From NCBI GenBank assembly GCA_944320495.1, contig CALUHR010000010.1, positions 1 to 46,430 of the forward strand: a DNA stretch of 46,430 nt, read 5' to 3'. Shown in pieces: positions 4,470 to 44,766 of this stretch (positions within the stretch are counted from its first letter, which is position 1; the number at the start of each line of letters is the position of its first letter). Under the pieces are notes generated by a model. That model was given only the letters and a program-made list of their open reading frames with translations, was not told the DNA's origin and ran no database searches. Both the position numbers and the translations under genes were made by a program. Origin of the DNA: Candidatus Methanomethylophilaceae archaeon. Lineage in GTDB: Archaea > Thermoplasmatota > Thermoplasmata > Methanomassiliicoccales > Methanomethylophilaceae.

Positions 4470-5387
4470 TCGGAAATCGTCCAGCCTGAACGATTCCCTC
4501 CCGCGGGAGTCGACTATCCTATCGCGGGGCATCACCGCGCCCCAGAGGAGCTCAGAGTCGTCGCAGTAGAGCCTCGTCCTGCGCTCCGCCGGGGTGGAAC
4601 GGTTGGCGTAGCAGTAGGCGCAGTCGTGGCCGCAGGTGTCGTACTCGCCGATGTCGATGGCACGGACGCATAGGCATCCGTCCCTCACGGGCGCATCCAG
4701 CGTCTCGTACGGCACGTCGAGGGAGCGCATCATGGCCGCGTCGATGCACCCGCGTCTCTGTATCCCGTATGATGACAGGTCCCTCCTCGGACAGCAGCAG
4801 CTCAGGGTCATCTCGTTCTCGCGGGCGGTCTCGGAGGCCATCCTCAGGAACGCGTCAGCCTCCGCGGCCGTCGGACCGCGGTACAGGTCCCCGGCCTTCG
4901 AGGCCCTACCATACATGTCCACGAAGCTGAACACGCACCTGTCCGTCCAGCGGGACGCCTCGCGGCACATCATGCGGAACTTCCGCTCGTGGTACGCCGC
5001 ATCCATGCCCTTCCCGTAGAGCACCGGGTCGTACCTCCAGACCATCCTGTCCCTGCCTATCCTCTCGGCTATGCGGGCGCAGCAGTCGCTGATGTCGGCC
5101 TTGAAGGGCACACCCGGCTCTATCGCCCTGCCGTACGGCGTCAGCGTGACCTGGAAGACGTACATGTGGCCCATCGAACCGATCTCCCTCAGGTACGGCT
5201 CCATCGGGCGGGGATCCTTCGTCATGAAGACGATGCAGTCCACGTTGCGCCTGCTGAGGTCGACCCTGAGGAGCGACGTCCTCGAGACGGGGTTCCGTAC
5301 CAGGCAGGAGCCCTCCCTGAGACGGGCCATCATCCACCGTGGATGGAAGGCAGGGATGTCGGTGCGGCGGCTGGCACAGATGATCAT
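4470..5387 (-). CDS. DUF1848 family protein with C-terminal cysteine cluster
   Basis: The 305-residue protein starts with MIICASRRTDIPAF, the diagnostic DUF1848 opening, which sets the start at 5387 although the frame is open upstream. MVWRYDPVLYGKGMD lies mid-protein and the C-terminus carries a radical-SAM-like cluster, CLCVRAIDIGEYDTCGHDC followed by AYCYAN. The reaction is unknown; the conserved cysteines suggest a 4Fe-4S centre. The first in-frame CGA is at 4470-4472, after RLDDF; two more codons lead to a TAA at 4461-4463. With CGA as stop the TAA is a back-up. The gene is divergent from ogt. Confidence 0.8.
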
Positions 5388-5463
5388 CGGTACTCGGAGT
5401 TGATCATCGGTGATAACCCTGGCGACGGCAGGGTTATACGGGCGTCCTGCTACTCTGGCCCCG

Positions 5464-5937
5464 ATGAGGGGCCCCTGCATTCACTCGTTCATCACGCTGA
5501 TCGGAAGCATGAGCGTCACCGAGGACGGTGAGGGACGCGTAACGGCGCTGTACCTGCCGAACCAGAACCTCCCGGCGATGGAGGAGTGCGAGACGGAGGT
5601 CCTCTCCGAGGCCGCCGGGCAGGTCAACGAGTACCTCTCCGGCAGGAGAAGGTCCTTCGACCTGCCACTCCTTATCGATGGGAGCGAGTTCAGGCGCTCG
5701 GTCCTCGGGGCACTTGTCGACATACCCTACGGGGAAGTCAGGACCTACGGGCAGATCGCCGAGACAGTGGGATCGCCGAGGGCTTACCGCGCCGTCGGGA
5801 CCGCCTGCGCGGAGAACATGATCCCGATAATCATCCCCTGTCACCGCGTCGTCCCCAGCTCCGGGGGTGTGGGCAACTACGCCGGCGGATCGGCGCTCAA
5901 GACCAGACTGATAGAGCTCGAGAGGGAGAACGCGTGA
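5464..5937 (+). CDS. ogt: Methylated-DNA--protein-cysteine methyltransferase
   Basis: The 157-residue protein is an O6-alkylguanine-DNA alkyltransferase. The suicide cysteine is Cys126 in IIPCHRVV, preceded by the helix-turn-helix segment IPYGEVRTYGQIAETVGSPRAYRAVG and followed by the GNYAGG turn. It moves alkyl groups from O6-alkylguanine to itself. The ATG at 5464 is preferred because the family's N-terminal domain begins about there; an in-frame ATG lies 54 bp upstream. Its TGA overlaps the GTG start of the AlkD-like gene, so the two repair genes form a translationally coupled pair. Confidence 0.92.
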   Translation: MRGPCIHSFITLIGSMSVTEDGEGRVTALYLPNQNLPAMEECETEVLSEAAGQVNEYLSGRRRSFDLPLLIDGSEFRRSVLGALVDIPYGEVRTYGQIAETVGSPRAYRAVGTACAENMIPIIIPCHRVVPSSGGVGNYAGGSALKTRLIELERENA

Positions 5938-6620
5938 CATCCTATGGCGAGGAGGTCCGCAGGCTCGCGGATCCCAAGCTGGCGGAGTTCAACTCCAAGC
6001 TGAACCCCGGGAAGGAGGGTGTGATCGGCGTCAGGATGCCCCAACTGAGAGCCCTGGCCAAGAGGATCGTCAAGGAGGACTGGAGAGGCTTTCTCGATGA
6101 GACCCCGGGATCCTTCGAGGAGGAGGTCCTGCGCGGCATCGTGATCGCCACGGCCCCCGTGGACACGGAGGAGAGGATCCGCCTCTCCGAGGATTTCCAG
6201 CACTACATCGACAACTGGGCGACCTGCGACTGCTTCTGCCAGTCGTGGAGATTCCCCGGGAGGGATTCAGACATGGTGTGGGACTACTTCGCGTCCAAGA
6301 TCGGAACCGGCGAGGAGTTCCCGATGCGCGTGTCCGTCGTGGCGAGGATGTCGCTCTTCAAGGACAGGGACAGGATGCTCCTGCTCGCCGAGGACATAGA
6401 GTCCCACGACCATCCCGGCTACTACTACAGGATGGGCGCCGCATGGGCGGCGTCCGTGATATACGTCAGATTCCCGGACATCGGCATGTCGATGCTCGAA
6501 TCCGGGAGGATGGAGACGTGGACCCACAACAAGACGATCCAGAAGATCTGCGAGTCCCTCCGGGTGACCGATGGGGACCGGTCCGAGGTGCGGGCCCTCA
6601 GGCGCCGCAGAGCTCCCTGA
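5934..6620 (+). CDS. DNA alkylation repair protein, AlkD-like
   Basis: The 228-residue product has the family's HEAT-repeat helices and opening motif GVRMPQLRALAKRI (about residues 30-43), WATCDCFCQSW near 88 and WTHNKTIQKICESLR near the C-terminus. AlkD glycosylases remove cationic 3- and 7-alkylpurines without base flipping. The GTG start at 5934 overlaps the ogt TGA (GTGA), so both are made from one mRNA. This joins direct O6 reversal and N-alkyl base excision in one unit. The 3' end overlaps the convergent unknown gene by 23 bp. Stop is TGA. Confidence 0.85.
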   Translation: MTSYGEEVRRLADPKLAEFNSKLNPGKEGVIGVRMPQLRALAKRIVKEDWRGFLDETPGSFEEEVLRGIVIATAPVDTEERIRLSEDFQHYIDNWATCDCFCQSWRFPGRDSDMVWDYFASKIGTGEEFPMRVSVVARMSLFKDRDRMLLLAEDIESHDHPGYYYRMGAAWAASVIYVRFPDIGMSMLESGRMETWTHNKTIQKICESLRVTDGDRSEVRALRRRRAP

Positions 6621-7173
6621 CCAGCCTCTCGATCTCGTCGGCGTTCTCGTTCCCGACGCGGGCGCCCTTGCGCTCGAGCCAGGTCCATCCCCTGCGCTCG
6701 CACTCATCCTTGAACTTCGGGGAGGTGACGGCAATGAGCTTCCCGTCTGCGATGTCCCCGCGGTCCAGGAACATCTGGAACATGTCGTTCGGGACGCACA
6801 AGATGACCTTGTCGAACGGCTTGGTCAGGAATGAGGTCTGCTCGATGAAGCCCTTGGCCTCCTCGGCCGCCTCGTAGCCTGCCTTGTCCGACATGACGTC
6901 GGGGTAGTCGACGATCTGGTAGTTGCCTGGGACGAACCCGTACTTCGTGGTGATGACCCCGAACGATACGTCCACGAGCTTCGCACCGCCGGGAAATGTG
7001 GCGGTGTCCAGCCTCTTCACCAGGTTCTTCACCTCGGTCACGCGGCCTCCGAATATGTCGAAGGCGGTGGCCAGACGGTTCTTCACCAGGAATACGGTCG
7101 AATCGTTTGTGACGATCAGGATCCTCTTGCCGATCCTCGCCTCCACGAAGAGCTTGGTCTCGGGACAGGACAT
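6598..7173 (-). CDS. Conserved unknown protein downstream of hypD
   Basis: The 191-residue soluble protein is not confidently assignable. It alternates beta strands and helices (RILIVTND near 17-24, VSFGVITTKYGFVPG near 69-83, KVILCVPNDMF near 122-132) like a Rossmann-type fold, and the KYGFVPG segment weakly recalls YaaA/DUF6884-type proteins. Its ATG at 7173 directly abuts the hypD TGA, so it is the last gene of the folC-nth-hypA-hypD run. A role in nickel or hydrogenase maturation would be inference from position only. Stop is TGA. Confidence 0.65.
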   Translation of the reverse strand: MSCPETKLFVEARIGKRILIVTNDSTVFLVKNRLATAFDIFGGRVTEVKNLVKRLDTATFPGGAKLVDVSFGVITTKYGFVPGNYQIVDYPDVMSDKAGYEAAEEAKGFIEQTSFLTKPFDKVILCVPNDMFQMFLDRGDIADGKLIAVTSPKFKDECERRGWTWLERKGARVGNENADEIERLVRELCGA

Positions 7174-8262
7174 TCAGTTCACCTTCGGTCCGAGACGGTA
7201 GGCGATCGAGCAGTTGCCCTCGGCGGAGACCATGCACGGCCCCATGGGGTTCATCGGCTTGCAGACCTTCCCGAAGAGGGGGCACTGCTCCGACCTTATG
7301 AGCCCGCGCAGGACGTCTCCGCACCTGCATCCCTTGGCCTCCTCCTCGACCTCCGGGGTCTTGGCGAGGATGTCCTCGTGCACCTTGGTGGCGTCGTGGG
7401 CCTCGAACTCAGGCCTGAGGGCCAGGGCGCTCTTGGGGATCACCGGGAACCCGCGCCAGGAGCGGTCGACGGGTACGAAGGTCTCGTCCATGAGCTTCAG
7501 CGCCTTCGGGTTGCCCTCCGGGCGGACCAGACGGGTGTACTCGTTCTCGACCTCGGTCCTGCCCTCCTTGATCTGCTTGCAGAGCATGTAGCAGGACATG
7601 AGGATGTCCAGCGGCTCGAAGCCTGCGATGACCTGAGGGACGTGGTGCTTCTCGGACACGGGCTCGAACATGTGCGTGCCGGTGATGACGGCCACATGGC
7701 CGGGCATGATGAACCCGTCGATCCTGCTCTCGCCGAGCTGGAAGAGGGTCTCGATGATCGGAGGGCAGATCCTGTGGCAGCTGTAGACGCTGAAGTTCTC
7801 GGGGCAGTCGTCCCTGTGCAGGGGCACGCAGGTGGACGGGGCGGTTGTCTCGAAACCGACGCCGACGAACACCAGTGGCTTGTCGGGTTGGTCCCTCGCC
7901 ATCTTGACCGCGTCGTCTATCGAGTATACTATGCGCACGTCGGCGCCGTCGGCTTTGGCGGAGAAGAGGGATCCCGCGGTGGTGGGCACGCGCATCATGT
8001 CGCCGAAGGCGGTGACGGTGACGCCGTTCCTCGCCAGGGTTATGGCGTCGGCGATCTCGTGGCTGGTGGTGACGCACACGGGGCATCCGGGGCCCTGGGC
8101 GATGGTGACTCCGACATCGTTCAGCATCTCCTCGAGGCCGAAGCGGACGATGGTGTCCTGGTGCGTTCCGCATATGTGCATCAGGCGGACGTCGACGTCC
8201 AGCCTCCCGATCCCCTCCAGGATCTTCTTCGCGGTCTCCTCGTCCCTGTACTTGAACTCCAT
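7174..8262 (-). CDS. hypD: Hydrogenase maturation factor HypD
   Basis: The 362-residue protein matches HypD along its length: CGTHQDT with Cys31, GPGCPVCVTTSHE with Cys60 and Cys63, GFETTAPST and PGHVAVITG, and a C-terminal 4Fe-4S segment with CRCGDVLRG and later CxxxC pairs. With HypC, HypD assembles the Fe(CN)2CO part of [NiFe]-hydrogenase. The ATG at 8262 is set by homology and shares one base with the CGA that ends hypA. No hypC is seen in the window. Stop is TGA. Confidence 0.95.
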   Translation of the reverse strand: MEFKYRDEETAKKILEGIGRLDVDVRLMHICGTHQDTIVRFGLEEMLNDVGVTIAQGPGCPVCVTTSHEIADAITLARNGVTVTAFGDMMRVPTTAGSLFSAKADGADVRIVYSIDDAVKMARDQPDKPLVFVGVGFETTAPSTCVPLHRDDCPENFSVYSCHRICPPIIETLFQLGESRIDGFIMPGHVAVITGTHMFEPVSEKHHVPQVIAGFEPLDILMSCYMLCKQIKEGRTEVENEYTRLVRPEGNPKALKLMDETFVPVDRSWRGFPVIPKSALALRPEFEAHDATKVHEDILAKTPEVEEEAKGCRCGDVLRGLIRSEQCPLFGKVCKPMNPMGPCMVSAEGNCSIAYRLGPKVN

Positions 8263-8642
8263 CGCTCGACCTCCTCGATGTCCATGCACTTGACGGTGCA
8301 CTCCATGCCCTTCACGACCTCGATCTGACCACCGCACTCCGGGCATGCCAGCACCGGGACGGAATGGGTCTCGTAGTCCGGGTCCGTCAGCATCCTCGCA
8401 GGTCCGTTGTACCCGCAGGACGGGCAGCGGACCTCCACGGGGATGTGCTCTATCACGAGCTCGGAACCCTCGAGGATCGTGCCGGTGGTGACTATGCCGT
8501 AGGCGAACGTCATCTGCTCCTCGCCGAGGTTGGTGAGGTCGCCGATGCAGACGGTGACAGAATTCACCTTCTCGATGTTGTACTTGGACAGCTCGTCTAT
8601 CACGGCGTCCACGATGCCTGTCACGACCGACACTTCGTGCAT
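8262..8642 (-). CDS. hypA: Hydrogenase/nickel maturation protein HypA
   Basis: HypA delivers nickel to hydrogenase. The start at 8642 gives the required N-terminal MHE (His2 is a nickel ligand). The zinc site is Cys73/Cys76 and Cys100/Cys103 (CPSC and CPEC). The protein should end near residue 126, KCMDIEEVE, and the next codon is CGA at 8262-8264. Under the standard code the frame would continue 27 residues with an arginine- and serine-rich tail (RWSSSTGTRRPRRRS) that is simply hypD read in another frame, ending at 8181. CGA shares its A with the hypD ATG (CGATG), just where TGATG is usual. Confidence 0.93.
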
Positions 8643-8705: not shown

Positions 8706-9374
8706 TCACTTGCGGCCGAGGACCTCGGAGCCGTGATCGCACCATTGGGAGACTGGGCATCTCTCGCAGTGCGGGTGGTTCGGCAGGCAGACGACCTGGC
8801 CGTGCCTCACCAGGTACCTGTTGATGTCCGACCACCTCTCCCTAGGGGTGATGTCCATCAGGGCGAACTCGGTCTCCTCGGGGGTCCTGGTATGCACCAG
8901 ACCCATCAGGTTGGCGATGCGGTGGACGTGGGTGTCCACGCACACGGATGGTATGTTCATCGCATACGAGCGGACGCAGGCGGCGGTCTTGCGGCCGACC
9001 ATCGGGAGACTGACCAGCTCCTCGGTGCTCTCCGGGACCCTTCCCCCGAACTCGTCCCTGAGCTTGATGCAGCACCTGACGATGGCGTCGGCCTTCTGCT
9101 TCGGGAATCCTGCGGGGCGGATCAGCTCCGCCACCTCAGCAGGGTCCGCGCCCGCGATGGCGTCTATGGAATCGTATCTGTGGAACAGGTTGTCGGACGC
9201 CTTGCGCGTGTTGTCGTCCCTCGTGCGCTGCGACAGTATCGTGGCGATGAGGACGTGGAAGGGGTCCGCGGGCCACTCCGGGTTCAGACCCTCCGAGTTG
9301 CGGCCAGGATACGCTCCGCCCAGGTACTCCCCCGAGAGCGTGTCGAGAATCGGGACGATCTGTCCGCCATCCAT
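8706..9374 (-). CDS. nth: Endonuclease III, DNA glycosylase/AP lyase
   Basis: The 222-residue protein has the helix-hairpin-helix LPMVGRKTAACV with catalytic Lys129, catalytic Asp147 in CVDTHVHR, and a C-terminal 4Fe-4S cluster Cys196-x6-Cys203-x2-Cys206-x5-Cys212. It excises oxidised pyrimidines and nicks AP sites. The ATG at 9374 lies inside the 3' end of folC (25-bp overlap), so the two are coupled. Stop is TGA. Confidence 0.95.
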   Translation of the reverse strand: MDGGQIVPILDTLSGEYLGGAYPGRNSEGLNPEWPADPFHVLIATILSQRTRDDNTRKASDNLFHRYDSIDAIAGADPAEVAELIRPAGFPKQKADAIVRCCIKLRDEFGGRVPESTEELVSLPMVGRKTAACVRSYAMNIPSVCVDTHVHRIANLMGLVHTRTPEETEFALMDITPRERWSDINRYLVRHGQVVCLPNHPHCERCPVSQWCDHGSEVLGRK

Positions 9375-10609: not shown

Positions 10610-10632
10610 GTTCCCTCCCGCGCCATTACGGC

Positions 10633-10663: not shown

Positions 10664-11530
10664 ATGCACGGGGTGTTCGTCTCCAGCGCGTACCTTCGCG
10701 GACGCAAGTTCGAGGAGCCCTGGGAGATGCTCAGGGACGCCTGCTCCAGGAGAGGCGTGGAACTGCGGAGGATGAGCAACTCCGAACTGGCGGTCCCCGT
10801 GGGGGATCCCGATCTGAAGAGGAGACTCGACGATCCAGATTTCGTGCTGTTCTGGGACAAGGACACCGTCTGCGCGGCGAACCTGGAGATGTGCGGGATG
10901 AGGGTGTTCAATCCCTCCGAGTGCATCCGCGTGTGCGACGACAAGGCCTTGACGCACCTGGCACTTGCTCGCAGGAGGATTCCGTCCATAGAGACTGTTG
11001 TGTGCCCCATGTCCTACGGTGAATGCGACGACCCCGACTTCGTATCGAGTGTGACTACGATCGTCGGATTCCCCATGGTCGCCAAAGACCGCTTCGGGTC
11101 CTTCGGCCAGCAGGTCCGGATGGTCTCGGATGAAAACGAATTGATGTGTCTGATATCCGGGCCGTACGTCCCCAGGATCCTGCAGCCGTACATCGAGTGC
11201 GGCGGCCACGACGTGAGGGTGGAGGTGGTCGGCGGGAGGCCGATAGCGGCCATGTCCAGGACCGCCCCTCCGGGAGACTTCAGATCCAACGCGTCCATCG
11301 GCGGGACCCTGGCCCGCCATGAGCCGGACAGCGAGGAATCCGAACTCGCCATCCGCGCCTGCGAGGCGGTGGGAGCGGATTTCGCCGGCGTGGACATAAT
11401 CCGCACTTCGAACGGGCCTGTGGTCTGTGAGGTGAACTCCAACGCCCACATCCGGAACCTTCTGGACTGCACCGGGATCAACGCGGCGGACGCCATCGTC
11501 GACCATGTTATATCGGAGGTGCGCGGACGA
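10664..11530 (+). CDS. RimK-like ATP-grasp ligase, first of a pair
   Basis: The 288-residue protein is an ATP-grasp enzyme: a pre-ATP-grasp N-terminal domain, then PMVAKDRFGSFGQQV (ATP-binding lysine), ILQPYIECGGHDVRV, the SNASIGG loop and the Mg-binding end FAGVDIIRTSNGPVVCEVNSN. RimK relatives join glutamate or other amino acids to peptides and cofactors (F420, tetrahydromethanopterin); the substrate here cannot be told. Every codon is a normal sense codon until CGA at 11528-11530, after VISEVRG, where the fold ends. The standard-code frame would run 49 more out-of-frame residues to 11680. CGA overlaps the ACG that begins the next gene. Confidence 0.87.
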
Positions 11531-13229: not shown

Positions 13230-13670
13230 ATGGACGGAGTGACGCGCATCGGCGTCTCGTTGGAGCCGGAGCTGCTCAAACAGTTCGACGAATCGATCTC
13301 CAAGAAGGGCTATGTCAGCAGGTCGGAGGCGATCAGGGACCTGGTCCGCGACTCCCTGGCCGAGTCAGAGTGGAAGAACGACGACGAATGGATGGTAGGC
13401 ACCATCGTCATGGTCTACGACCACACCGTCACCTCCGTGGGCGACAAGCTCACCGACATCCAGCACGACCATCAGGGTATGGTCAACACCTCTGTCCATG
13501 TGCACCTGGACCACGACAAGTGCATGGAGATCCTCATCTGCGAGGGGAAGCTCAGAGACCTGAAGAGGTTCTCCGACGAGATAACCTCGATAAAGGGCGT
13601 CCTGCGCGGCAGGCTCACCATGGCCGCGCCCAGCACCGGCAACCTCCACCACGTCGGCCACAGGAACCGA
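13230..13670 (+). CDS. nikR: Nickel-responsive regulator NikR
   Basis: The 146-residue protein has an N-terminal ribbon-helix-helix (RIGVSLEPELLKQFD to about residue 45) and the ACT-like nickel domain with all four ligands in the canonical spacing: His79, His90, His92 and Cys98 (HVHLDHDKC). NikR represses nickel uptake when nickel is plentiful, which fits the nearby hypA/hypD. Family proteins end about where CGA occurs (13668-13670, after NLHHVGHRN). In the standard code the frame would add 83 residues that are antisense to the next gene, to 13922. Confidence 0.92.
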
Positions 13671-14210
13671 TCCGTCCTCCAGGCCGTCCACTCCCACGAC
13701 GGCGGCGCTTATCCTGCCGTCGTCCATGCCGAACAGCGATCCCAGGAATCCCGCCGACTCCGGCGACGGGTAGAATATCCAAGGATCCACGCCGGCCGGA
13801 ACGTCCATGTCCAGCCTGGTGGCCCTCATGACCATGCTGGCATCATGTGCGCCAACCCGGTCCGGGAACACCACGAAGTTGTCCGAGAGCCAGAACAGGC
13901 CCTCGATCGCCCTGTAACGTGATTGCAGCGCTAGCGGCACATCGTGACCGATCACGACGCCGCGGTCGTCCACCAACTCCATGCTTATCTCCGATGGTCT
14001 GGAGAACGTCCCGTCGCAGAACAGGACGAACGCGTCCCCCTTGGATGCGCACGTCGCAATCCCCGGGTTCTCGATGCGGATTCCGCAGGAACCGCGAACG
14101 ACCGACGCCTCTATGTCCATCACCCTCTCCAGCACATCACGGGGGATCGGCTCGGCGCGTATGGTCCCGCCCAGCCGCGTCAGCCTGTCGGCGAACTCGC
14201 TCGGAATCAT
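13587..14210 (-). CDS. Unknown protein convergent with nikR
   Basis: The 207-residue product is not recognised. It looks like a compact alpha/beta protein (MIPSEFADRLTRLGG at the start, WIFYPSPESAGFLGSLFGMDDG near 160-181) with no membrane segment. The first CGA is at 13587-13589; reading on under the standard code would give 73 more residues antisense to nikR, ending at 13365. Even with CGA as stop, the last about 28 codons overlap the nikR 3' end on the other strand, so the true end could be different. The gene is divergent from topA. Confidence 0.55.
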
Positions 14211-14304
14211 TGGATGGATGATACCTCCGTAGTATAAAATACGTCAGATTCCCCCGAACCACCGGGATCGGGACGATCTCCGGGGCGGCCGCGCAGACGG
14301 CAAT

Positions 14305-16819: not shown

Positions 16820-17002
16820 TCGGAGAAGGAGCCCATCGGGTTCCTCGATGCCGTTGAAGTGATCGTTCATGGCATCGATCTCGCGAGAGATCCTTGCATT
16901 CCGGCAAGTGGAACATTCGAGCTCTTTGCCGAGGCCGAGCCTGAGACGCATCTCCGCGCGGTCGAGGACGACGATCCTCCCGCACTCGCAGTAGACGCTC
17001 AT
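16820..17002 (-). CDS. Small four-cysteine zinc protein
   Basis: The 60-residue protein has CECG near its N-terminus and CSTC about 25 residues later, a zinc-ribbon pair around a helical basic stretch (RAEMRLRLGLGK), then an acidic helix. The ATG at 17002 (or 17005) is preferred to 17092 because the zinc motif begins right there. CGA occurs at 16820-16822 after EEPDGLLL, and a TGA follows three codons later at 16808-16810. Function unknown; DNA or RNA binding is possible. Confidence 0.55.
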
Positions 17003-17382: not shown

Positions 17383-18651
17383 TCAGAGGCGGAACTTGGA
17401 GATGCCGGGGAAGACGGCACGGGAGCCGAGGTCCTCCTCGATCCTCAGGAGCCTGTTGTACTTCGCCGTGCGCTCGCCGCGGGCGGGGGCCCCGGTCTTG
17501 ATCTCGCCGCTGCCCCATCCGACGGACAGGTCGGCGATGGTCGTGTCCTCGGACTCTCCGGACCTGTGGGAGACGACCACGTTGTAACCGTTGGCGAAGC
17601 TCATCGCCGCGGCCTCGCCGGCCTCGGTGACGGTCCCGATCTGGTTGACCTTCAGAAGGAGGGCGTTGGCCGCTCCTGCCTCGATTCCGCGGCTGAGGCG
17701 CTTGCTGTTGGTGACGAACAGGTCATCGCCGACGATCTGCACCTTGCTGCCGATCTTCCTGGTGAGCTCGGCGGTGGTCTCGAAGTCGTCCTCGAAGAAC
17801 GGGTCCTCGATGCTGATCAGAGGGTGGTCGTTGACGAGGGAGACGTAGTGGTCAGCGAGCTCCCCAGCGGAGAGGTCCATACCGTCCACGTTGTACACGC
17901 CGTCCTTGAAGAACTCGGAGGAGGCGGCGTCTATCGCCAGGAACACGTCCTTTCCGGGCGTGTAGCCGGCGTCGGACACGGCATCGGTGATGGTGGTGAG
18001 CGCCTCGTCCACGGTGTCCACCGGGGGCGCGAACCCGCCCTCGTCGCCGATGTTGATGGCGCCGACCCCGTACCTCTCCTTGAGGATGCCCTTGAGACTG
18101 GCATAGACCTCGGCGGACATGCGGAGGCAGTCGGAGAACGTCTTCGCTCCGGCAGGGATGATCATGCACTCCTGGACCCTCAGGTTGCCGCCGGCGTGCT
18201 TCCCGCCGTTGATGATGTTGAGCATTGGCACGGGGAGCGTGACGTGGTCCTTCCCGATGTGCTCGTAGATGGGCACGCCCTCGGCCATGGCCCCGGCCCT
18301 GACGGCCGCCAGGGAGACGGCCACCATGGCGTTTCCGCCGAGATTGGATTTGTTCTCTGTGCCGTCGAGCTCGATCATGACGCGGTCGATGGCCTCCTGG
18401 TCCGAGGGGTCCATGCCCTCGAGGGCCTTGGCGATGGGGCCGCGGACGTTCTCCACGGCCTTCATGACCCCTTTGCCCTTGTACCTGGACTTGTCGCCGT
18501 CCCTGAGCTCCAGGGCCTCCCAGGTGCCGGTGGACGCGCCGGACGGCGCGATGGCGGTGATCCTGTGTCCCTTGACGGTCAGCTCGGCCTCCACCGTGGG
18601 GTTGCCCCTGGAGTCGAGTACCTCCCTTGCCCAGACCTTCTCTATCTTCAT
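17383..18651 (-). CDS. eno: Enolase
   Basis: The 422-residue glycolytic/gluconeogenic enzyme interconverts 2-phosphoglycerate and phosphoenolpyruvate. Visible motifs: SGASTG near 38, GGKHAGG near 150, GDEGGFAPP near 203, SIEDPFFEDDF near 281, LLLKVNQIGT (catalytic Lys) near 333, and VVSHRSGESEDTTIAD near 362. The ATG at 18651 shares its A with the CGA that ends the response regulator, and overlaps the TGA directly after it (CGATGA), so enolase translation is coupled to it. A GGAGGAAC ribosome-binding site lies just upstream inside that gene. Stop is TGA. Confidence 0.97.
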   Translation of the reverse strand: MKIEKVWAREVLDSRGNPTVEAELTVKGHRITAIAPSGASTGTWEALELRDGDKSRYKGKGVMKAVENVRGPIAKALEGMDPSDQEAIDRVMIELDGTENKSNLGGNAMVAVSLAAVRAGAMAEGVPIYEHIGKDHVTLPVPMLNIINGGKHAGGNLRVQECMIIPAGAKTFSDCLRMSAEVYASLKGILKERYGVGAINIGDEGGFAPPVDTVDEALTTITDAVSDAGYTPGKDVFLAIDAASSEFFKDGVYNVDGMDLSAGELADHYVSLVNDHPLISIEDPFFEDDFETTAELTRKIGSKVQIVGDDLFVTNSKRLSRGIEAGAANALLLKVNQIGTVTEAGEAAAMSFANGYNVVVSHRSGESEDTTIADLSVGWGSGEIKTGAPARGERTAKYNRLLRIEEDLGSRAVFPGISKFRL

Positions 18652-19586
18652 CGTTGTTCCTCCTTGTATTCGATCATGCTGTGAAGGAAAATGTTGCGGT
18701 CCTTGTCGGTAAGCCCTCCGGCGTCAACCGAGACCCCGAAGGTGCACATCTTGGACCTGCCCGACATGAGCTGGTGGAGCATCAGCAGGGACTGGTTCAG
18801 CCCGTCCGCCTCCATCAGGTCCCCGAATGTGTCGAAGACGATGACGGGCCTGGCGTGCGAGTCTATGAACCCGCGTATGCTGGACATGAGCGTCCCGATC
18901 TCCTGGATGCCCAGGGATCCGCCCTTGCCGTTCCCGGAGAGGGAGAGCACCTCCATGTTGCTGTAGGTGAACCTCTCCTTGATGGCCTTCGCCCTGCCGG
19001 TCGTGACTATCATCACATCGTACCAGTCCGGGTCGAAGAGTCCCATGAACCTGTAGATGGCGTCCGGATACTCCTCGAATATGACGTAGGAGCTTCCGAA
19101 GGACACCCCGCGGCTGTCGGGCGAGTCCGAGGACGGCTGGATCCTCTCGCGCTTGTCGCGGCGGAAGAGACGACGCTTGCCGTCCTTCCTCTCCTTGCGC
19201 TTCTTTGTTCCGCGCTCCTCCGCGACCTCCAGGCTCTCGCCCTGGATGCGCTTCACCGCGTCCACCACATCGGACGACTTGAACGGCTTGTCGATGCTTA
19301 CGCGGATGAACGGGTTGTCCGTTGGGACTATGTCCCCGGATCCCTTGAGAAGGACGACGCGCATGGCCTGCGGGGTGATCGAAGGATCCATCTGCGCCAG
19401 GACATGGAGACCGTCCTCGCCACCGACCCTGGAGTCCAGGAAGAGGACCTCCGGGAGGAAGGCCGTCATCTTCTCGACCGCCTCGGAGACCGTGCTGGCG
19501 GTGCGGACCGTGTGGCCCTCCCCAGCCAGGATATCCCTTATGATCTCCCTGATGGCTGCGTTGTCGTCGACTATGAGGATCTTCAT
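18651..19586 (-). CDS. Response regulator with DUF835 output domain
   Basis: The N-terminal receiver domain (1-110) has the acidic pair in LIVDDN, phospho-acceptor Asp51 (LFLDSRVGGEDG) and Lys100 (SIDKPF). A very basic linker follows (about 125-150, KKRKERKDGKRR...), then a DUF835 domain (about 160-305; YVIFEEYPDAIYRF, LSLSGNGKG, VIVFDTFGDLMEADG), a combination typical of Thermoplasmatota. It probably senses a histidine-kinase signal; the output is unknown. The last codons are CAA, CGA (18651-18653), TGA, so CGA and TGA are tandem stops. Enolase starts inside this junction. Confidence 0.85.
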
Positions 19587-23745: not shown

Positions 23746-25134
23746 AGGAAGATAACCCGGAGGTTAGAGGAGTGGAAGACCTCAGGAGACAGGAAGAAAT
23801 GCCTGATGGTCCGTGGCGCGAGGCAGATCGGCAAGACGTACTCCGTCGAGGAGTTCGCGAAGGAGAACTACGGCCACTACCTCCGCATAGACCTGCATGA
23901 GGATGTGGGGGCCCGCACCATGTTCGACGGCGATCTCGATGCTGGCACAATCATGATGGCCATATCCGCCCGCTACCCCCGCTTCGAGTTCGTGCCCGGG
24001 GATACGCTGCTCTTCCTGGACGAGATCCAGGATTGCCCGAATGCCCGGACCGCACTGAAGTTCCTCTCCCGCAACGAGAACTTCGACATCGTGGCGTCCG
24101 GCTCCCTAATGGGCCTCAAGACGAAGGGCGTGGCCTCGATGCCCGTAGGTTCCGAGGAGAATGTCCAGATGTACCCGATGGACTTCGAGGAGTTCCTCTG
24201 GGCAATGGGCCTCTCGGAAGGCGTCGTGGAGCATGTCAGGGGATGCATCCGCAGGATGGAACCTCTGGAGGACTCCCTCCTGGACTCCATGTACCGCTAC
24301 ATGAGATGGTTCATGATGGTCGGCGGCATGCCAGAGGCCGTCCAGGAGTTCTCGGACACCAGGCTGTTCACCGGCGTCAGACGCATCCAGAAGGACCTGA
24401 TGGAGGGATACGGCGACGACATCGGCAGCTATGCCGAGGGCCGCTACAAGGACCGGGTGAGGAGATGCCTGGATTCCATATCCTCCCAGCTCGCCAGGGA
24501 CAACAAGACGTTCCTCTACTCGGACATGGAGGACAACCCGGACTATGCCGTCGGGAGCAAGTATTTCGAGTACGCCCTCAACTGGCTGAGCGGTGCTGAG
24601 CTCTCGCTCATCTGCGACCGCGTCACCCAACCGCGCCTGCCCCTGGAGGAGAACGCGATCAGACCCGCGTTCAAGCTCTACCTCCTGGATACGGGACTCC
24701 TGCTGTCGATGTACGACGACTCGATCCTTTACGACGTACTCAGCGGCGGCGTGGATGTCAACAAGGGCGCCCTGAGCGAGAACCTCGTCGCCTGCATGCT
24801 GCATTCGCAGGGCAGAAGGCTGTACTACTATCAGGTCTCCGAAAGGGGGAAGGAGAGGATGGAGCTGGATTTCGTGACGGTCATCGGTGGGAAGGTGACC
24901 GCCATAGAGGTGAAATCCGGGAAGAAGCGCGACACCAGGTCCCTGAACAAGGCGATGGAGAGATTCGGCATCGACGGGATCATGTTCGAGACCCGCAACA
25001 TCTTCGTTGACGACAAGGGAGTGAGACACTACCCGCTCTTCGCCGCCTCGTTCATGGATTGCATCGACGTGAGGCCCGAACTGCACGTGGACCTCCCGGA
25101 TGCGGATTCCATCAACGAGCGGTTCGGGAACCGA
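23740..25134 (+). CDS. AAA ATPase with C-terminal DUF4143
   Basis: The 464-residue protein has an unusual Walker A, MVRGARQIGKTYS (about 24-36), Walker B LLFLDEIQDCPNA near 92, a middle helical part and a DUF4143/nuclease-like C-terminal part with DFVTVIGGKVTAIEVKSGKK (about 375-395). Such ATPases are abundant in gut archaea and bacteria, often in accessory DNA; their role is unknown. Start is TTG at 23740 with a GGAAGGAAGG stretch upstream. The expected C-terminus coincides with CGA (25132-25134); two more CGA follow at 25144-25146 and 25150-25152. The standard frame would add 77 unrelated residues to 25365. Confidence 0.85.
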
Positions 25135-29019: not shown

Positions 29020-29448
29020 TCGCATCTCCACCCTGGTCCTCAGCCCCATTATCCCCACGGAGATGGACATCCTCGTCCCCTCCGCGAACTCGGCCTCCAG
29101 ACCGTCCGTGTAGATGCTGTGCCTCACGTCCACCCTGTGCTTCCCGGGAGACACCCTGACACGGTGTGTCCCGCCTGTCACCCTCAGAGATTCCTCTCCG
29201 TCGAACGAGACTGCGAACGGCTGGCCCTTGCCCGTTACGGTCACCAGCACAGAGACCATCCCGTCGTCATGCTCACAATCCGTCAGGCCCTCGCCCTCCA
29301 CCACGGGTTCCGAGACTCCGGGATCTGAGAGGTCGACATCATCCCTTCTCAGGACGAACCCGCAGTTGATGCAGTAGCACTGCATCCGATCGGTATTGAA
29401 GACCGTCCTCAGGGAGCAATTCGGACAAGTGAGCTCGACATAGGCCAT
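29020..29448 (-). CDS. Zinc-ribbon protein with beta-rich C-terminal domain
   Basis: The product (142 residues to CGA) starts MAYVELTCPNCSLRT with a second CYCINCG pair near 28, a zinc ribbon, then an acidic linker and a beta-strand domain (VLVTVTGKGQPFAVSFDGEE, HRVRVSPGKHRVDVRHSIY) of PEGA-like pattern. No membrane segment. CGA at 29020-29022 follows the strand RTRVEM; the next 14 codons are a Gly/Ser-rich tail ending CPQF before TGA at 28975-28977. This is the least certain CGA stop, since the tail could be real. The start at 29448 is set by the zinc motif. Confidence 0.6.
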
Positions 29449-32459: not shown

Positions 32460-32828
32460 TCGCAGGAGTGCCAGATACCTTCCGCCGATGGCTCCCGCCA
32501 CACAGAGGACGGAGTTCATCAGTATGTTCGCCCCGGCCTTCCCCCACGCCTCGTCGCAGAGGAGATTGACGGTGTCTATCGAGAAGGTGGACATCGTCGT
32601 GAACGCGCCGAAGAACCCGGTGAACACCATCGTCTTCACCGGCCCGTCGGCGTATATCCCGTAGCGGAACATGAGGAACGACGCGAGGCAGCATCCGACG
32701 ATGTTGACGATGAACGTCGCCCAGGGGAACCCCGTCTCCACGGTGCGGTAGACGCAGAACCTTGACAGGGCGCCGAGCGCCCCTCCGAGCGCGACCGCCC
32801 CGAACGTCACCGCAGTGCCGGGATCCAT
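32460..32828 (-). CDS. crcB: Fluoride ion channel Fluc/CrcB
   Basis: The protein (122 residues) has four membrane helices and the Fluc motifs GGALGALSRF (about 15-24), NIVGCCLASF and FTGFFGAFTTMSTFS (the Phe-box and TTFS-like turn). It exports toxic fluoride as a dual-topology dimer. CGA at 32460-32462 comes after GGRYLALL, the normal CrcB end; six codons later TAA (32439-32441) is a back-up. No fluoride riboswitch consensus is visible upstream. It may be co-transcribed with the dehydratase genes. Confidence 0.9.
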
Positions 32829-38092: not shown

Positions 38093-39271
38093 TCGCTCCC
38101 TCCATGGTCCGACGATGCGAGGTCCGGTGTCCTCGTCGTCATCGTCGTCGATGATCACGTCCCCACTCTCGTAATCATCGTAGTCGTCGAAATCCGGGGC
38201 CGGGCCTATCATGGCACGCTCCTCCTCCTGAGGAGCGTCGTTCCAATCGTCGTCGACGATCAGCTCCCCGTCGTCGTAGTCATCGTAATCATCGAAATCG
38301 GGCACCGGCGGGAGCATGGCGCGCTCCTCCTCTTCCTGCGGTGCCTCCTGCGCCTCGAACTCGCCGTCGATGTAGACGTCGTCGTCCAGGCAGCGGAGCC
38401 TGTGCTCCCTGTACCCGCGCATCTCCAGGATAGTGGCACCGAGCTCGCGGGTCATCGCCCAGTACTGGTCCTCGGCGGTGAGCGCGCGGTATCCGGTGGC
38501 GCGCCATCCGCCGTTGAACGATTTGATCGCGACACCGCTGCCCGATGAACCGAGGCTGATGCCGATCCAGTCCTTGGTGGTGTTGGACAGCATGTACAGC
38601 ACGGAGCCCATCACGAACACGATGGCCCCCAGGATACCGAGCGGTATGCAAACCGACGACGGGTCGCCGTGGACCATCAGGTCTGTCGGGACCGAGAACG
38701 CCGCATCCGCGGCTATGTCCGCCTCCGCTCTCGCCTCGCCCAGCGCCAGCCCTTCGTAGTAGGCTTCCCCGTACTCGCCGGAGTTAGGCGACTGCTGGGG
38801 GTAGAAGTCATAGCCATATGGTATCGTATGTGAGACCTCGCCGTTCTGCACGGCCTCGAGGTACGTGGTGAAGTATCCGAACTCGACACCGTCGTTGAAT
38901 CCCTGCTTGTAGTCGCCGTCGGTGTCGAACTCCCCCGACTCGTACAGCGCCACGTAGGGCGCAAACATCAGCAGGAAACCGATCACTACGAACGCTATCG
39001 GCAGCCTGAGGTCCCTGCCGAACTTGGACATCATCGACGAGACCGACGATATAGAGGAGAGCGACGTCTCCTGCCTGTGGACGGCGGCGCCCTCCGCCGC
39101 CTCGATCTCGAATATGACACGCCTGTTGGTAACGGTGAGGACTCCCTCGGACTCGACGCTGCCGGGGAGCGGTATGACCGTCCCTAGAATGAGAGCGACA
39201 CGGTCCACTGCGGTGCAAGGGTATCTGCGGACGACGCGCTCGCCCTCGGCCATGACCGTCCGGTCTGTCAT
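38093..39271 (-). CDS. Membrane protein with PH-like domain and acidic duplicated tail
   Basis: The 392-residue product starts with a small domain like bacterial PH/YdbS (VLTVTNRRVIFEIE near 45-58), two membrane helices (about 90-112 and 225-245) around a polar extracellular loop, then a cytoplasmic part. The tail has two copies of an acidic unit starting EERAM, with DFDDYDDYDDG and DFDDYDDYESG, then DDDDDED. The frame stays clean to CGA (38093-38095) after GPWRE; reading on gives 23 residues of out-of-frame LRR gene ending at 38024. CGATG is the junction. ATG overlaps the upstream TGA (ATGA). Confidence 0.75.
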
Positions 39272-39947: not shown

Positions 39948-41198
39948 TCGCGCGCGAACTATCGCGCCCGCGAGGGCATCGATCTCCACCTGGGTCTGCT
40001 CTCCGGTGGCCATGTTCCTCAGGGTCACGCAGCCCTCCTCGAGCTCCCTGGCGCCGACGATCACCGCGTACCTGGCGCGGGCCGAGGACGCGAACTTCAG
40101 CGCCTTGGCCATCTTCCTGTCCATGAAGTCGATGTCCGCGGACACGCCGGCCGTCCTCAGCGAGGCGGCGATTTCGGCGGCCTTCACGCGGACGTCGTCG
40201 GACACGCAGAGCACGTAGGCGTCGATGCCGTCGAAGTCGTAGGAGGAGCCCTCCTTCTCTAGTGCCAGCAGGGCCCTGTCGAAGCCGACGGCGAAGCCTG
40301 TGGAGAACACCTTCTCGCCACCGAAGAGTTCGGAGAGCGTGTAGGACCCTCCACCGCAGATCTGCTTCTCGGCTCCGAGCGCCGGGGCCTCCGCCTCGAA
40401 CACCATGCCGGTGTAGTAGTCGAGACCGCGAACGACGCCCAGATCGATCTCCAGGTCCCTGACGCCCATGGCGTCCAGGTAGGAGACGACCTGCCTGAGC
40501 CAGTCCCCGGCCTCTCCTGGAACCCTGTCCAGGACCTCGGTGCCGCCGACGGTCTCCGTGAGCTCGAACAGCGCCTCCATGTCCGCATCGGAGACGCCCA
40601 TGTCCGCCAGGATCGGCCTGGCCTCGTCGTACAGCTTCTTGTCCAGCTTCTGGAGGACCTCGGCGGTCCTCTCCTTGGGCACGCCGATGTCCGCGATCCT
40701 CTGCCTGAGGACGCCGATGTGGCCTATGCGAAGGCGGTAGTCCTTCAGACCCAGCGATTTCAGCATGGCGGACGCGGTGGCGATGGCCTCCGCATCGGTC
40801 TGCGGGGTGGCGCTGCCGATGATCTCCGCACCGAACTGGAAGAACTCTCTGTACCTGCCGCTCTGGGGGCGCTCGTACCTGAAGCACTGGCCGAAGTAGA
40901 ACACCTTGATCGGCTTCGGCTCGTTGCTCATGTTGTTGACGAACATCCTGATGACCGGCGCGGTCATCTCCGGGCGGAGGGCGATGGAGCGGTCGCCCTT
41001 GTCCTTGAACTCGTAGAGCTCCTTGAGGACGTTGGGGCCGGATCTGAGGATGAAAAGCTCCGAATCCTCGAAGATCGGGGTCTCGACCTCCCTGAACCCG
41101 AAGGTCCTGGCCGTCTCCCTGAGCTTTCCTTCGTAGAACCTGCGCCTCTCCATCTCATCGGGCAGGAAGTCCCTGGTCCCGCGCGGACACTGAATCAT
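39948..41198 (-). CDS. hisS: Histidyl-tRNA synthetase
   Basis: The 416-residue class II synthetase has motif 1 (RETARTFGFREVETPIFE), motif 2 (QCFRYERPQSGRYREFFQFG), the histidine motif LGVVRGLDYYTGMVFE and motif 3 (GFAVGFDRALLAL), then an anticodon-binding domain. The ATG at 41198 (MIQCPRGTRDFLPDEM) is set by homology and by a TATA box 26 nt upstream. CGA at 39948-39950 follows LAGAIVRA; two codons later TAA (39939-39941) is a back-up. Confidence 0.96.
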
Positions 41199-41211
41199 GT
41201 GGCTTTCGATA

Positions 41212-41240: not shown

Positions 41241-41280
41241 CGGGCGATACGGCATATAGCCGCCACGCGATTACAGTGAC

Positions 41281-43155
41281 ATGGACGCCAGGACCGTGGC
41301 CGGGAAGTCCCTCTTCTTCATCCTCATATGCGCGTTCGTCACGGCGTTCTCCCGTGTGTTCGGCCCGGAGAACAACCTCGTCGGCGTCATCATCCTGGTC
41401 CTGGCGCTGACCATGCTGTCGCGGGACCTGTCTGTCCGGCCGGTGTGGAACCTCGGGGTGATGACGGCCTGCGTCCTGGCCATGGGACTGTTCTCCTTCG
41501 CATCGGTTTGGCTCGGGAATCCGCTGGTGGGCGCCGTGCTGAACTTCGCCTTCGTCTTCGGGGCCTGCTTCTACGCGATGCACGACCTGAACTCCCCGAT
41601 GCACTTCCCGTTCCTGCTAGGATACGCGTTCATGCTCTCGGTCCCGGTGGCCGCGGAGGACCTCCCGCTGAGGCTGCTGGCACTCATCGTTGGCGCGGTG
41701 TTCGTAGTCGGGCTGAACGTCCTATCCCATCACGTCTCCAAGGGCAGGAGGGAGCACGAGGGCATCGTGTCGATATGCGACGAGGTCTCCTCGATCTGCG
41801 TGTCCGCCAGGGCCGGTGCGTCCCCATCGACCGACAAGCTCGACGCGCTCTGCGCCAGGATGGACGGCTACCTCTACGAGAGGCTGAAGTCCAGGTTCCT
41901 TTCCAGACCGGGGGACCGCAGGATGCTGGACGTCATCGTCTCCCTTCAGGTGATCGGCTCCGCCGCCGCCCTCCGGGAGCGGGACCCGGAGACCCTCGAC
42001 TCGCTATCCGACATCATGGCGAGGATGTCCTCGTTCCAGAAGGGGGAGGACATGCAGCCCCTCCTCGACGCGATAGACTCCTTCCTCGTCGACTGTCCGG
42101 ACGCCGACCCCGAGGCGCGCTCCGCCCTCAGGCTCCTGAGGGACCAGCTGTGGAGGATGGCGTTCAGCACCTCCGAGGGGAGCTTCGACGAGGCCGACAT
42201 CCCCGCGTCCTTCAGGATCGGGACCGTCCTCAGGGAGAGCCTCCGCCTGGACTCGGCGAGGTTCACGTTCTCCTTCCGCATGGCGCTGGTGTTCTCGCTG
42301 TGCGCGTTCGTCTGGCAGGGCTGGGGCGACGAGAACGCCAAGGCGCTGGTGTTCACGACCATAGCCATGGTCCAGCCCTATCTCGAGGGGACCGCCAGGC
42401 GCACGGCCTTGCGCCTGGTCGGGACCGTCGCCGGGATAGCCGCGGCGATACTGTCGCTGGTGATCGCCGGAGGCGACCTGGCGGTGCTCACCGTCATCAT
42501 GCTGGTGGCTAACTACGTGTTCACGGTGATGTCCCCGCTCAGATACGACGTCATGATGGCCTTCGTCACCCTGTCGTCGCTCCTCACCGCGATGATGACC
42601 AACCCGCCGGAGACGATCCTCACCGAGAGGGTCGCCTTCGTGTTCGCCGGCGTGCTCATAGCCAGCGCCGCGAACCGTATCATCCTGCCCTACCGCCTGG
42701 CCGACGAGAACGTCGAGCTCTGCGGGAGGTATCTGGGCATCGTCAGGGACCTCATCGGGCGCCTCGGCGAGTCCCTGGACGGACGCCAGGACCGCCTGGC
42801 GGAGACCGCCCTCGTGCTCAGGGCCTCCACAGTGTCGTCCAAGATCAGGACCAATGTCACCGGAAACCCGGACCTCCCGACCAAGGTCCTCCTCTCCCGC
42901 CTCGACAGGCTGACCGTCGGCATCCGGCTGCTGTCCGGCTCGCTGACCACCGCCGGCTCGGAGTGCAGGGGGATCGTCGGAGGCATGGTGTCCTCATTCG
43001 ACCCGGATTCCCGCGACGGGGTGGAGGCTCCGGACACCTCAGGCCTCGAACCGAAGGAGGCCGACATGGTCCGCGAGACCGCCGGGATCCTGGACGGATA
43101 CCTCCGCGGCTCCGCCCTTTACGATACGATGTCATCCGGCGCCCGTCAGCTATAA
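41281..43155 (+). CDS. FUSC family transporter (aromatic acid exporter-like)
   Basis: The 624-residue protein has two bundles of membrane helices (about 8-150 and 330-470), each followed by a cytoplasmic helical domain, the layout of FUSC/YccS/AaeB proteins; the second block carries PYLEGTARRTALRLVGTVAGI, the family signature. These proteins export aromatic acids or similar compounds; substrate here is unknown. The ATG is 25 nt after a TATA box. Stop is TAA; no internal CGA. Confidence 0.82.
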   Translation: MDARTVAGKSLFFILICAFVTAFSRVFGPENNLVGVIILVLALTMLSRDLSVRPVWNLGVMTACVLAMGLFSFASVWLGNPLVGAVLNFAFVFGACFYAMHDLNSPMHFPFLLGYAFMLSVPVAAEDLPLRLLALIVGAVFVVGLNVLSHHVSKGRREHEGIVSICDEVSSICVSARAGASPSTDKLDALCARMDGYLYERLKSRFLSRPGDRRMLDVIVSLQVIGSAAALRERDPETLDSLSDIMARMSSFQKGEDMQPLLDAIDSFLVDCPDADPEARSALRLLRDQLWRMAFSTSEGSFDEADIPASFRIGTVLRESLRLDSARFTFSFRMALVFSLCAFVWQGWGDENAKALVFTTIAMVQPYLEGTARRTALRLVGTVAGIAAAILSLVIAGGDLAVLTVIMLVANYVFTVMSPLRYDVMMAFVTLSSLLTAMMTNPPETILTERVAFVFAGVLIASAANRIILPYRLADENVELCGRYLGIVRDLIGRLGESLDGRQDRLAETALVLRASTVSSKIRTNVTGNPDLPTKVLLSRLDRLTVGIRLLSGSLTTAGSECRGIVGGMVSSFDPDSRDGVEAPDTSGLEPKEADMVRETAGILDGYLRGSALYDTMSSGARQL

Positions 43156-43181
43156 CGCCACGGACGCCGATTCCGACCCTC

Positions 43182-44687
43182 ATGAGCACATTGTTCCTCG
43201 GCGGAGACATCATAACCATGACCGACAGGACGGCGGAGGCCGTCGTCGCCGAGGACGGCAGGATCGTCGCCGTCGGGAAGGCGGACGAGCTGAGAGCCAG
43301 ATACCCGGGTGCGGAGGTCCGCGATCTCGGCGGGAGGACCCTCATGCCCGGGTTCGTCGACGCCCACGGGCACTTCGCGGCATACGCCATGTCCCTGTTG
43401 CAACTCTCCCTTAGGGACGCACGCGACATGCGCACGCTCCTGGATTCCATATCGGAGAGACGCGCCTCCACACCCGAGGGCGGATGGGTGGATGCCCGCG
43501 ACTACGACCCCTCGAAGCTGTCGGAACACCGTGATCCCACACTCGAGGAGCTGGACTCCGCCTGCCCCGACCGGCCGCTGTGCCTGCATCACGTCTCCGG
43601 GCATCTGGGTCTGTTCAACTCCGTTGCCATGAGAACGCTCGGTCTTGACTCCTGCCGCCTCGAGGAGGGACCGTTCATCTCGGCCATCCAGGGCATACCG
43701 ATGGGGTCCCCCGAGGAGGTCCACCGCGCGTTCCTGGAGGCCCAGGAGCGCTTCGCCTCCTACGGCATCACCACCGCCCAGGAGGCGCTGATCAAGAGGG
43801 AGATGGTCCCCCTCGTCAGTCCTCTGATGGACTCCCCCGAGTTCTGGATCGACATCCTGGGCTTCGCCGACGCGGCGCACCGCGTCGAGGTCATGGACAT
43901 GCTCGGCATACCCGCCGGGGAGTGGCACGGTCATCTGAAGGTCAAGGGCGTCAAGGTCCTACTGGACGGTTCCCCCCAGGGAGGGACCGCATGGATGGCC
44001 GAGCCCTACCTGGACGGACACAACGGCTCCGCCACCACCGATCCGATCGATCTGCGCAGGTACCTGAGGGATGCTGCGGTGCTGGGGCTCGAGGTAGCCG
44101 TCCACTGCAACGGCGACGCCGCATGCAGGGAGCTTGTGGATGCCGTCGAGGAGGTCAGTCGCGACACCGGCCTGGAGCAGCACGTGGTGATGATACACGC
44201 CCAGTTCCTGACCTCGGACCTCATGGATCGCATGAAGGCCGTCGACATGGAGCCCTCCTTCTTCGTATCCCACTCGTGGTACTGGGGCGACCTCTATGTA
44301 GAGCTCTTCGGACGCGACCGCGCCGACCGCCTCAGCCCCTGCGGCACCGCCCTGTCCAAGGGTATGAGGATCACGATCCATCAGGACGAGCCGGTCCTGG
44401 AGCCGTGGCCGATGGACGCCGTCTTCTGCGCCGTGAACAGGAGGACCGAGGGAGGGGACGTCCGCGGCGAGGACGAGCGGATCGGCATAATGGACGCCCT
44501 GAGGGCTGTCACAGTCGACTCGGCTGGACAGAACCGCGAGGGAGGCATCGGGACCATCGAGGAAGGGGGCTGGGCCGACCTCGTAATCCTGGACAGGAAC
44601 CCACTCAGATGCGCCCCGTCAGAGCTCAGGGAGGTGACCGTCCTGGAGACGATCAAGCGCGGAAAGACCGTGTACATAAGGGACCGA
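43182..44687 (+). CDS. YtcJ-like metal-dependent amidohydrolase
   Basis: The 501-residue protein is an amidohydrolase_3 enzyme: LFLGGDIITMTD start, MPGFVDAHGHF metal site (about 62-72), VKGVKVLLDGSPQGGTAWM near 256, VAVHCNGDAACRELV near 306 and a C-terminal EEGGWADLVILDRNPL strand. Such enzymes hydrolyse cyclic amides or similar bonds. The family normally ends in a strand like VLETIKRGKTVYIRD, exactly where CGA (44685-44687) occurs; a second CGA is at 44700-44702. The standard frame adds 33 residues after the first CGA, to 44789. It starts 26 bp after the FUSC gene. Confidence 0.85.
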
Positions 44688-44766
44688 TTACGGATCGAAC
44701 GAAGAGCTCGGTTGAACTCAATCAACCGCTCCATCGGCCAAAGCAGGGCATTGGAGGACGCGATTG

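Follow-up and report, generated by a model that had tools for sequence, protein, structure and literature searches.

Does CGA, ordinarily an arginine codon, end genes in an archaeon of the family Methanomethylophilaceae? The question is raised by a stretch of 46,430 nucleotides (GenBank assembly GCA_944320495.1, contig CALUHR010000010.1; here called the window), for which an earlier note, made from the sequence alone, had proposed that CGA is a stop codon. We present here a computational analysis of the window, of the genome that contains it and of related genomes. The proposal is strongly supported by the ends of orthologous genes and by a per-codon control. We consider it probable that CGA, which closes some 25% of the genes sampled in this genome, is a stop codon read by the single release factor, aRF1, outcompeting a weakened tRNA-Arg(UCG), and that the CGA in aRF1's own gene serves autoregulation.

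The window is the whole of contig C10 of genome G000, an assembly of 1.77 Mb (1,769 kb) in 14 contigs that is 90.6% complete. By its aRF1, which is identical to that of record CASFYI010000033.1, G000 was placed in the Methanomethylophilaceae, order Methanomassiliicoccales. The G000 sample, which was made up of the window and 20 other stretches, amounted to 438 kb of the 1,769 kb (about 25%); for G014 the sample was about 21%, and for the remaining genomes it was less. One G000 stretch, L051 (G000:C14:20001-40000), has a G+C content of 54%, against 60 to 64% in the other sampled stretches, and is possibly a foreign element. The genus was represented by 31 genomes (G000 to G030). Four of them, G000, G028, G014 and G007 (G+C contents of 61.8%, 61.1%, 59.8% and 53.7%, respectively), were scanned together with G033 from an outgroup genus. 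Genes were called with a home-made program based on codon usage, which was trained on each genome's own sequence and scored CGA as neutral. A codon was counted as internal where coding signal lay on both sides and as terminal where coding signal preceded it and a non-coding tail followed; ten control codons were included in the scan. Greedy longest-open-reading-frame (ORF) tallies of CGA were discarded, since shadow ORFs in high-G+C DNA distort them, and were replaced by homology counts and the codon-usage caller.

Of the CGN trinucleotides, CGA occurs most often in the window (1318 on the + strand), and its scarcity in frame is therefore not compositional. The coding segments of the G000 sample contain 37 CGA among 115,268 codons, against 2,592 CGC and 4,076 AGG. 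In a near-identical run, 19 of the 37 were among the final 10 codons of a segment, 11 were among its first 40 codons, and 7 lay in the part between these. Internal and terminal CGA codons numbered 3 and 53 in G000, 1 and 5 in G014 (the internal one being that of aRF1), 6 and 40 in G028, 0 and 0 in G007, and 21 and 0 in G033. Each of the ten control codons was internal more often than terminal in all five genomes, with internal:terminal counts in G000 of 130:16 for CGG, 6:1 for TTA and 38:5 for CAA; the least lopsided overall was TTA in G028 (9:4). Inspection of the three G000 codons scored as internal showed that only the one in aRF1 is genuine, those in nikR and in a transporter-like gene being gene ends. 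Over the nine internal entries of G000 and G028 together, we found the aRF1 codon, four gene ends, two codons that as Arg would fuse neighboring genes, and two codons in a single ORF (L286:18643-19998) that seems to comprise the end of one gene and, behind it, another gene (unproven). The would-be fusions, both in G028, are of pheT with a peroxiredoxin-like neighbor and of a cytidylate-kinase-like gene with a truB/cbf5-like one (names predicted from the translations). CGA does not occupy conserved Arg positions in many genes of G000, G014 or G028; it does so in G033, where it is an ordinary sense codon. CGA is thus nearly absent from gene interiors in the G000 sample but not a stop without exception, as a single CGA stands at a conserved Arg inside the aRF1 gene.

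The first stop per coding segment in G000 was TGA in 277 cases, CGA in 99, TAA in 16 and TAG in 6 (398 genes sampled). CGA accordingly makes up 99/398 gene ends in G000 (about 25%), 81/204 in G028 (about 40%), 15/338 in G014 (4%), 2/71 in G007 and 1/74 in G033. The G007 and G033 tallies give the noise of the count (1 to 3%), so the G014 share is only slightly above noise; five CGA ends in G014 have a clear non-coding tail.

Homology counts at the loci around aRF1 agree on the loss of CGA as a sense codon. At 20 named genus loci, 11 raw CGA hits outside aRF1 were obtained against 3,494 Arg codons, and none is genuine on inspection (10 come from one shadow query ORF and 1 from a non-coding alignment). 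In raw hits, CGA is also nearly gone from 17 sister-genus loci (8/3,148 Arg codons) and is commoner in 13 Methanoplasma-like loci (55/2,714) and 23 outgroup loci (146/3,179). Eight of the 81 aRF1 rows were left ungrouped: L072, L143 and L157 (without neighbor counts), and L100, L115, L124, L136 and L138, whose neighboring Arg codons include CGA in 0/43, 2/93, 8/116, 0/190 and 4/85 cases, respectively. In L118 (UBA593, DAEQ01000002.1), CGG dominates Arg usage (171/302); related loci use mostly AGG.

The ends of orthologs were compared for three pairs of genomes. Pairs with an identity below 40% or an alignment shorter than 60 residues were dropped. With CGA counted as a stop, ends agreed within 5 codons in 13/16 pairs for G000 and G014, 16/18 for G028 and G014, and 22/24 for G028 and G000, three comparisons that share genes and are not independent. 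With standard stops only, the same pairs agreed in 4/16, 4/18 and 5/24 cases, and pairs with CGA in neither member agreed in 29/32, 11/15 and 26/27. Where the standard stop came over 10 codons later than that of the ortholog (and the ortholog's stop was no more than 25 codons from the end of homology), CGA fell within 3 codons of the ortholog's stop in 33/40 comparisons (9/12, 11/13 and 13/15). Interior CGA codons were read in eight ortholog pairs, aRF1 not among them; they either belong to shadow frames or precede the likely start codon.

The end of folC was followed through 20 genus members, and it is CGA in 5 (G000, G008, G004, G021 and G013), TGA in 14 and TAA in 1. The CGA stands at the same place in G000, G008, G004 and G021 and 2 codons away in G013. 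Because it recurs at one site in separate assemblies, a sequencing error is unlikely. G000, G004 and G021 have similar folC tails, which was first taken as a sign of translation; this was rejected, as another frame through the tail appears to be the conserved start of the next gene, predicted from its translation to be endonuclease-III-like.

The bases around terminal CGA differ from those around TGA. The base following the codon (+4) is T after 31/53 CGA versus 73/282 TGA in G000 (P = 7e-6) and after 20/40 versus 24/116 in G028 (P = 9e-4); A follows 1/53 CGA versus 66/282 TGA in G000. The earlier note had reported T (8) or G (6) and never A or C; these counts are right for the window, and the exclusion fails beyond it (C in 8/53, A in 1/53). 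The base before terminal CGA (-1) is C or G in 44/53 cases in G000 and 39/40 in G028. In Escherichia coli and yeast, a +4 U accompanies lower readthrough, according to the available part of the source (PMC5289835).

Codon 78 of the aRF1 gene is CGA in 27 of 28 genus rows (one row probably a duplicate). The exception is G028, in which codon 78 is CGC after GCC, the gene's own end is CGA, and the genome is the top user of CGA stops. Codon 77 is GCT or TCT in all 26 CGA rows that hold it, the codon after 78 is CTN, and Arg stands at this position in the 15 rows printed, outgroups included. aRF1 has exactly one CGA at 19 of the 20 named genus loci, the twentieth being a fragment that starts after codon 78. 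The reading frame runs unchanged through the CGA, with no programmed +1 frameshift. A window test of synonymous variation along aRF1 did not single out codons 77 to 80, other windows being lower, so the case for codon 78 rests on CGA itself and on the T-ending codon before it. Of the 17 sister-genus loci, 16 have a single CGA in aRF1, and in 12 loci it stands at codon 25. Outside the genus, the aRF1 CGA is often at codon 25 or 123 (the latter in L098, L100, L105, L134 and others), codon 123 belonging to the YRCD motif. The suggestion of altered NIKS or YxCxxxF regions was not borne out: the decoding motifs NIKS, YxCxxxF, GTE and GGQ look ordinary, and no clade-specific change in decoding motifs was found among the aRF1 rows compared. 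G000 has a Ser in the GTx loop that G028 lacks. Directly downstream of aRF1 (G000:C2:85936-87165), on the same strand, lies a match to the N-terminal family of arginyl-tRNA synthetase (G000:C2:85665-85895, L200), so that two competitors for CGA may be co-transcribed.

The loss of tRNA-Arg(UCG), which the earlier note had offered as a possible basis, was dropped as a driver for G000 because the gene is present (G000:C13:413317) with a normal cloverleaf. For the covariance-model search, a first RNA model (R1) gave no cloverleaf fold, and a second (R2) was used instead. The gene was detected in 27/31 genus genomes, and its stems covary across the set; by the same model it was not found in G013 (87% complete), G016 (88%), G017 (66%) or G028 (87%). 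Anticodons were read for 10/21 matches in G013, 10/22 in G016, one in G017 and 10/22 in G028, where the other 12 matches score at most 53.9 bits, below the lowest UCG tRNA read (71.3). Of the 27 genus genes, 26 have one broken pair in the anticodon stem (31-39 or 27-43). The same is true of 1 of 12 genes from beyond the genus, and that lone outside case, G034, is also CGA poor. A broken stem pair occurs in just two of the 43 distinct intron-free G000 tRNAs that were read, Arg-UCG and Arg-GCG. To judge from the sequence, the broken pair may weaken the reading of CGA. A 27-43 mismatch of tRNA-Arg(GCG) is visible by eye in other genus members too. A further match of 104 bases (L016, G000:C2:64728-64831) was not called by ARAGORN without an intron; by eye it is an intron-bearing tRNA-Met, and the intron mode of ARAGORN gives Ser.

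These observations could be joined as follows. CGA would first have disappeared as a sense codon, and G+C pressure would then have converted TGA stops to CGA by one transition. Such ends would be tolerated because aRF1 could free the chain at CGA as long as its rival, the tRNA, is weak; in the simplest account, a factor with some affinity for CGA competes against a scarce or weak tRNA-Arg. CGA ends are commoner in the members of higher G+C content, as drift from TGA to CGA following the loss of sense CGA would predict, though just four genomes show this trend. Within aRF1, a plentiful factor would terminate at codon 78, and a scarce one would let tRNA-Arg(UCG) insert Arg and yield full-length aRF1; this switch would be the reason that the tRNA was kept. 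G028, without the internal CGA of aRF1, without a detectable tRNA and with about 40% CGA ends, would represent a completed reassignment. Three steps in this account are ones that we infer: that CGA terminates, that its decoding is weak and that feedback operates. We lean slightly towards a fuller statement, in which CGA is the fourth stop codon of a cellular genome, its lone sense use in aRF1 is a self-tuning switch and the sole reason that the tRNA survives, G028 has finished the change, and the genus displays every stage.

Several points weigh against this interpretation. The tallies come from samples of the genomes and from a home-made gene caller. CGA ends disagree with the ortholog in 3/16 (G000 and G014), 2/18 (G028 and G014) and 2/24 (G028 and G000) pairs, and in G043 and G046, outgroups at the level of the order, a CGA precedes the TGA of folC by 5 codons. 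As the aRF1 motifs are ordinary, no change in the factor explains the reading of C at the first position. Six other four- or sixfold aRF1 columns, among them Arg50, Arg186 and Arg189, also have a single codon in all rows, so that the weight lies on a codon otherwise missing from genes and not on invariance. L136, without CGA among its neighbors, has none in aRF1 either; CGA can therefore be lost without the switch. The tRNA-Arg(UCG) gene is present with covarying stems and has A20 in the D-loop, which we take to be arginine type, so CGA is presumably readable as Arg. Its apparent absence from G028 may reflect the incompleteness of that genome, G013 and G016 keep the aRF1 CGA without a detected tRNA-Arg(UCG), and G022 has the CGA together with a fully paired tRNA. 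tRNA-Arg(GCG) of G000 (G000:C13:401823-401899; L033:1823-1899) likewise has a T-T mismatch at pair 27-43. A broken pair need not weaken a tRNA, since a tRNA-Trp with a 4-bp stem increases UGA readthrough in E. coli, as described in the available part of PMC13092985.

Three other explanations were weighed against termination by aRF1. If CGA were unassigned, ribosomes might stall at it for want of an efficient tRNA, and aPelota with recycling, not aRF1, would free the chain; the broken stem pair of tRNA-Arg(UCG), the unchanged aRF1 motifs and a second, predicted Pelota-like match would all fit. Stalling is harder to reconcile with some 25 to 40% of gene ends in two species, some of them in housekeeping genes, and the +4 T preference resembles a termination context; moreover, the lone conserved interior CGA sits in the gene of a release factor, which points to aRF1. 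We therefore judge stalling unlikely. C-to-U editing of CGA to UGA in mRNA would leave the code unchanged, with termination at an ordinary UGA. One transition separates the two codons, and the bias around terminal CGA (+4 T, -1 C or G) could be the requirement of an enzyme. Editing would, however, need to be global and near complete, because in-frame CGA is nearly lost while the trinucleotide is abundant; ribosomal decoding explains the dependence on frame at once, and the aRF1 CGA and the kept tRNA-Arg(UCG) point to competition on the ribosome. Editing thus seems quite improbable.

The remaining alternative keeps CGA as an ordinary, very rare Arg codon and takes the apparent ends for tolerated C-terminal extensions or errors of gene calling. 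The scarcity of CGA across the family and the kept tRNA-Arg(UCG) would be expected, and the shared folC tail might be counted in its favor, though the beginning of the following gene runs through it in a different frame. It conflicts with TTA and CAA, which are similarly rare and not concentrated at gene ends, with distances from CGA to the next standard stop of up to hundreds of codons in sampled genes, with the ortholog stops, which in most pairs that allow a comparison coincide with the CGA or lie close to it, and with the neighboring G028 genes that would fuse. We find this alternative hardly credible.

All 14 CGA codons that the earlier note had listed as gene ends in the window were recovered, position and frame alike (Table 1). 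No in-frame CGA lies upstream in nine of the 14 ORFs; the others have one (DUF1848, hypA and the response regulator), nine (PH-like) or 13 (amidohydrolase), which most likely precede the start codon. The next standard stop follows 1 to 84 codons after the CGA. For the PH-like gene, the ortholog comparison gives no support, the ends lying 95 codons apart at 45% identity.

Table 1. CGA codons at gene ends in the window, with the base that follows (+4) and the next standard stop in frame
Feature	Position	Strand	+4 base	Next standard stop	Remarks
DUF1848 gene end	4470..4472	-	T	TAA, 3 codons on	
hypA-like gene end	8262..8264	-	T	TGA, 27 codons on	Coding signal falls after CGA
folC end	9350..9352	-	T	TGA, 22 codons on	2-3 codons from relatives' TGA
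ATP-grasp gene 1 end	11528..11530	+	G	TGA, 50 codons on	
nikR end	13668..13670	+	T	TGA, 84 codons on	First scored internal by the scan; gene end on inspection
End of ORF 13365-14243	13587..13589	-	G	TGA, 74 codons on	Gene status less sure; converges on nikR
Zinc protein gene end	16820..16822	-	T	TGA, 4 codons on	
Response regulator gene	18651..18653	-	T	TGA, immediately next	
AAA ATPase gene end	25132..25134	+	G	TAA, 77 codons on	
z-ribbon gene end	29020..29022	-	G	TGA, 15 codons on	1 codon from G014 ortholog's TGA
crcB end	32460..32462	-	G	TAA, 7 codons on	
PH-like gene end	38093..38095	-	T	TGA, 23 codons on	Not supported by the ortholog comparison
hisS end	39948..39950	-	G	TAA, 3 codons on	Same position as G014 ortholog's TGA
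Amidohydrolase gene end	44685..44687	+	T	TGA, 34 codons on	4 codons from G014 ortholog's TGA

Comparisons with known systems draw on the available parts of the sources cited and hold to that extent. In green-algal mitochondria, UCA and UCG, and UUR in Pycnococcus, have changed from sense to stop, with codon disappearance named as the main drive (PMC6821328). There, as proposed here, a former sense codon has taken over termination from standard stops; the algal cases involve organelle codes, U-initial codons and a release factor, mtRF1a, that is visibly changed, whereas the present case would concern a cellular archaeal genome, a C-initial codon and an unrelated release factor with ordinary motifs, in whose gene one sense use is kept. 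In bacteria, CGA or CGG has come to encode Trp or Gln, and AGG has come to encode Met, rarity being held to come first for CGA and CGG (PMC8629427). Arg codons appear as unstable points of the code in both settings; the bacterial changes lead to another amino acid, those of CGA and CGG in low-G+C genomes, unlike the stop meaning proposed here in archaea of mostly high G+C content. The same screen picks among amino acids and left 218 of 140,849 codons uninferred in archaea, and a sense-to-stop change would land among these (PMC8629427). The bacterial RF2 gene, prfB, is autoregulated through a standard stop and a programmed frameshift (PMC12421855). It resembles the proposed aRF1 switch in that a conserved codon early in the gene would let the factor cut short its own synthesis, a negative feedback; it differs in that here the codon is CGA, no change of frame is needed, and a cognate Arg tRNA would provide readthrough. 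Members of the Methanomassiliicoccales use UAG for pyrrolysine (PMC4153887), so that the same order tolerates a stop codon with two meanings; in that case a stop has acquired a sense meaning, and in ours a stop meaning would have been acquired by a sense codon. CGA does not occur in the main text of that paper (0 occurrences). G000 has a pyrrolysyl-tRNA synthetase gene (G000:C9:67854-68522, L328), and TAG closes only 6/398 sampled genes, which makes it likely that UAG encodes pyrrolysine here as well.

Full-text searches of the open-licence literature gave no report of a CGA stop or of a prokaryotic sense-to-stop change, which is weak evidence. To our knowledge, sense-to-stop changes are known only from organelles, and CGA would here be the first outside them and the first C-initial stop. 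If CGA is a stop, the gene models of a group of methanogens would be wrong at many C termini, and screens that choose among amino acids would miss code changes of this kind. Close relatives in which CGA ends are not seen or make up 4%, 25% and 40% of gene ends would then exhibit a codon changing its meaning in stages, and the conserved CGA of aRF1 would offer a direct test of a release factor policing its own codon.

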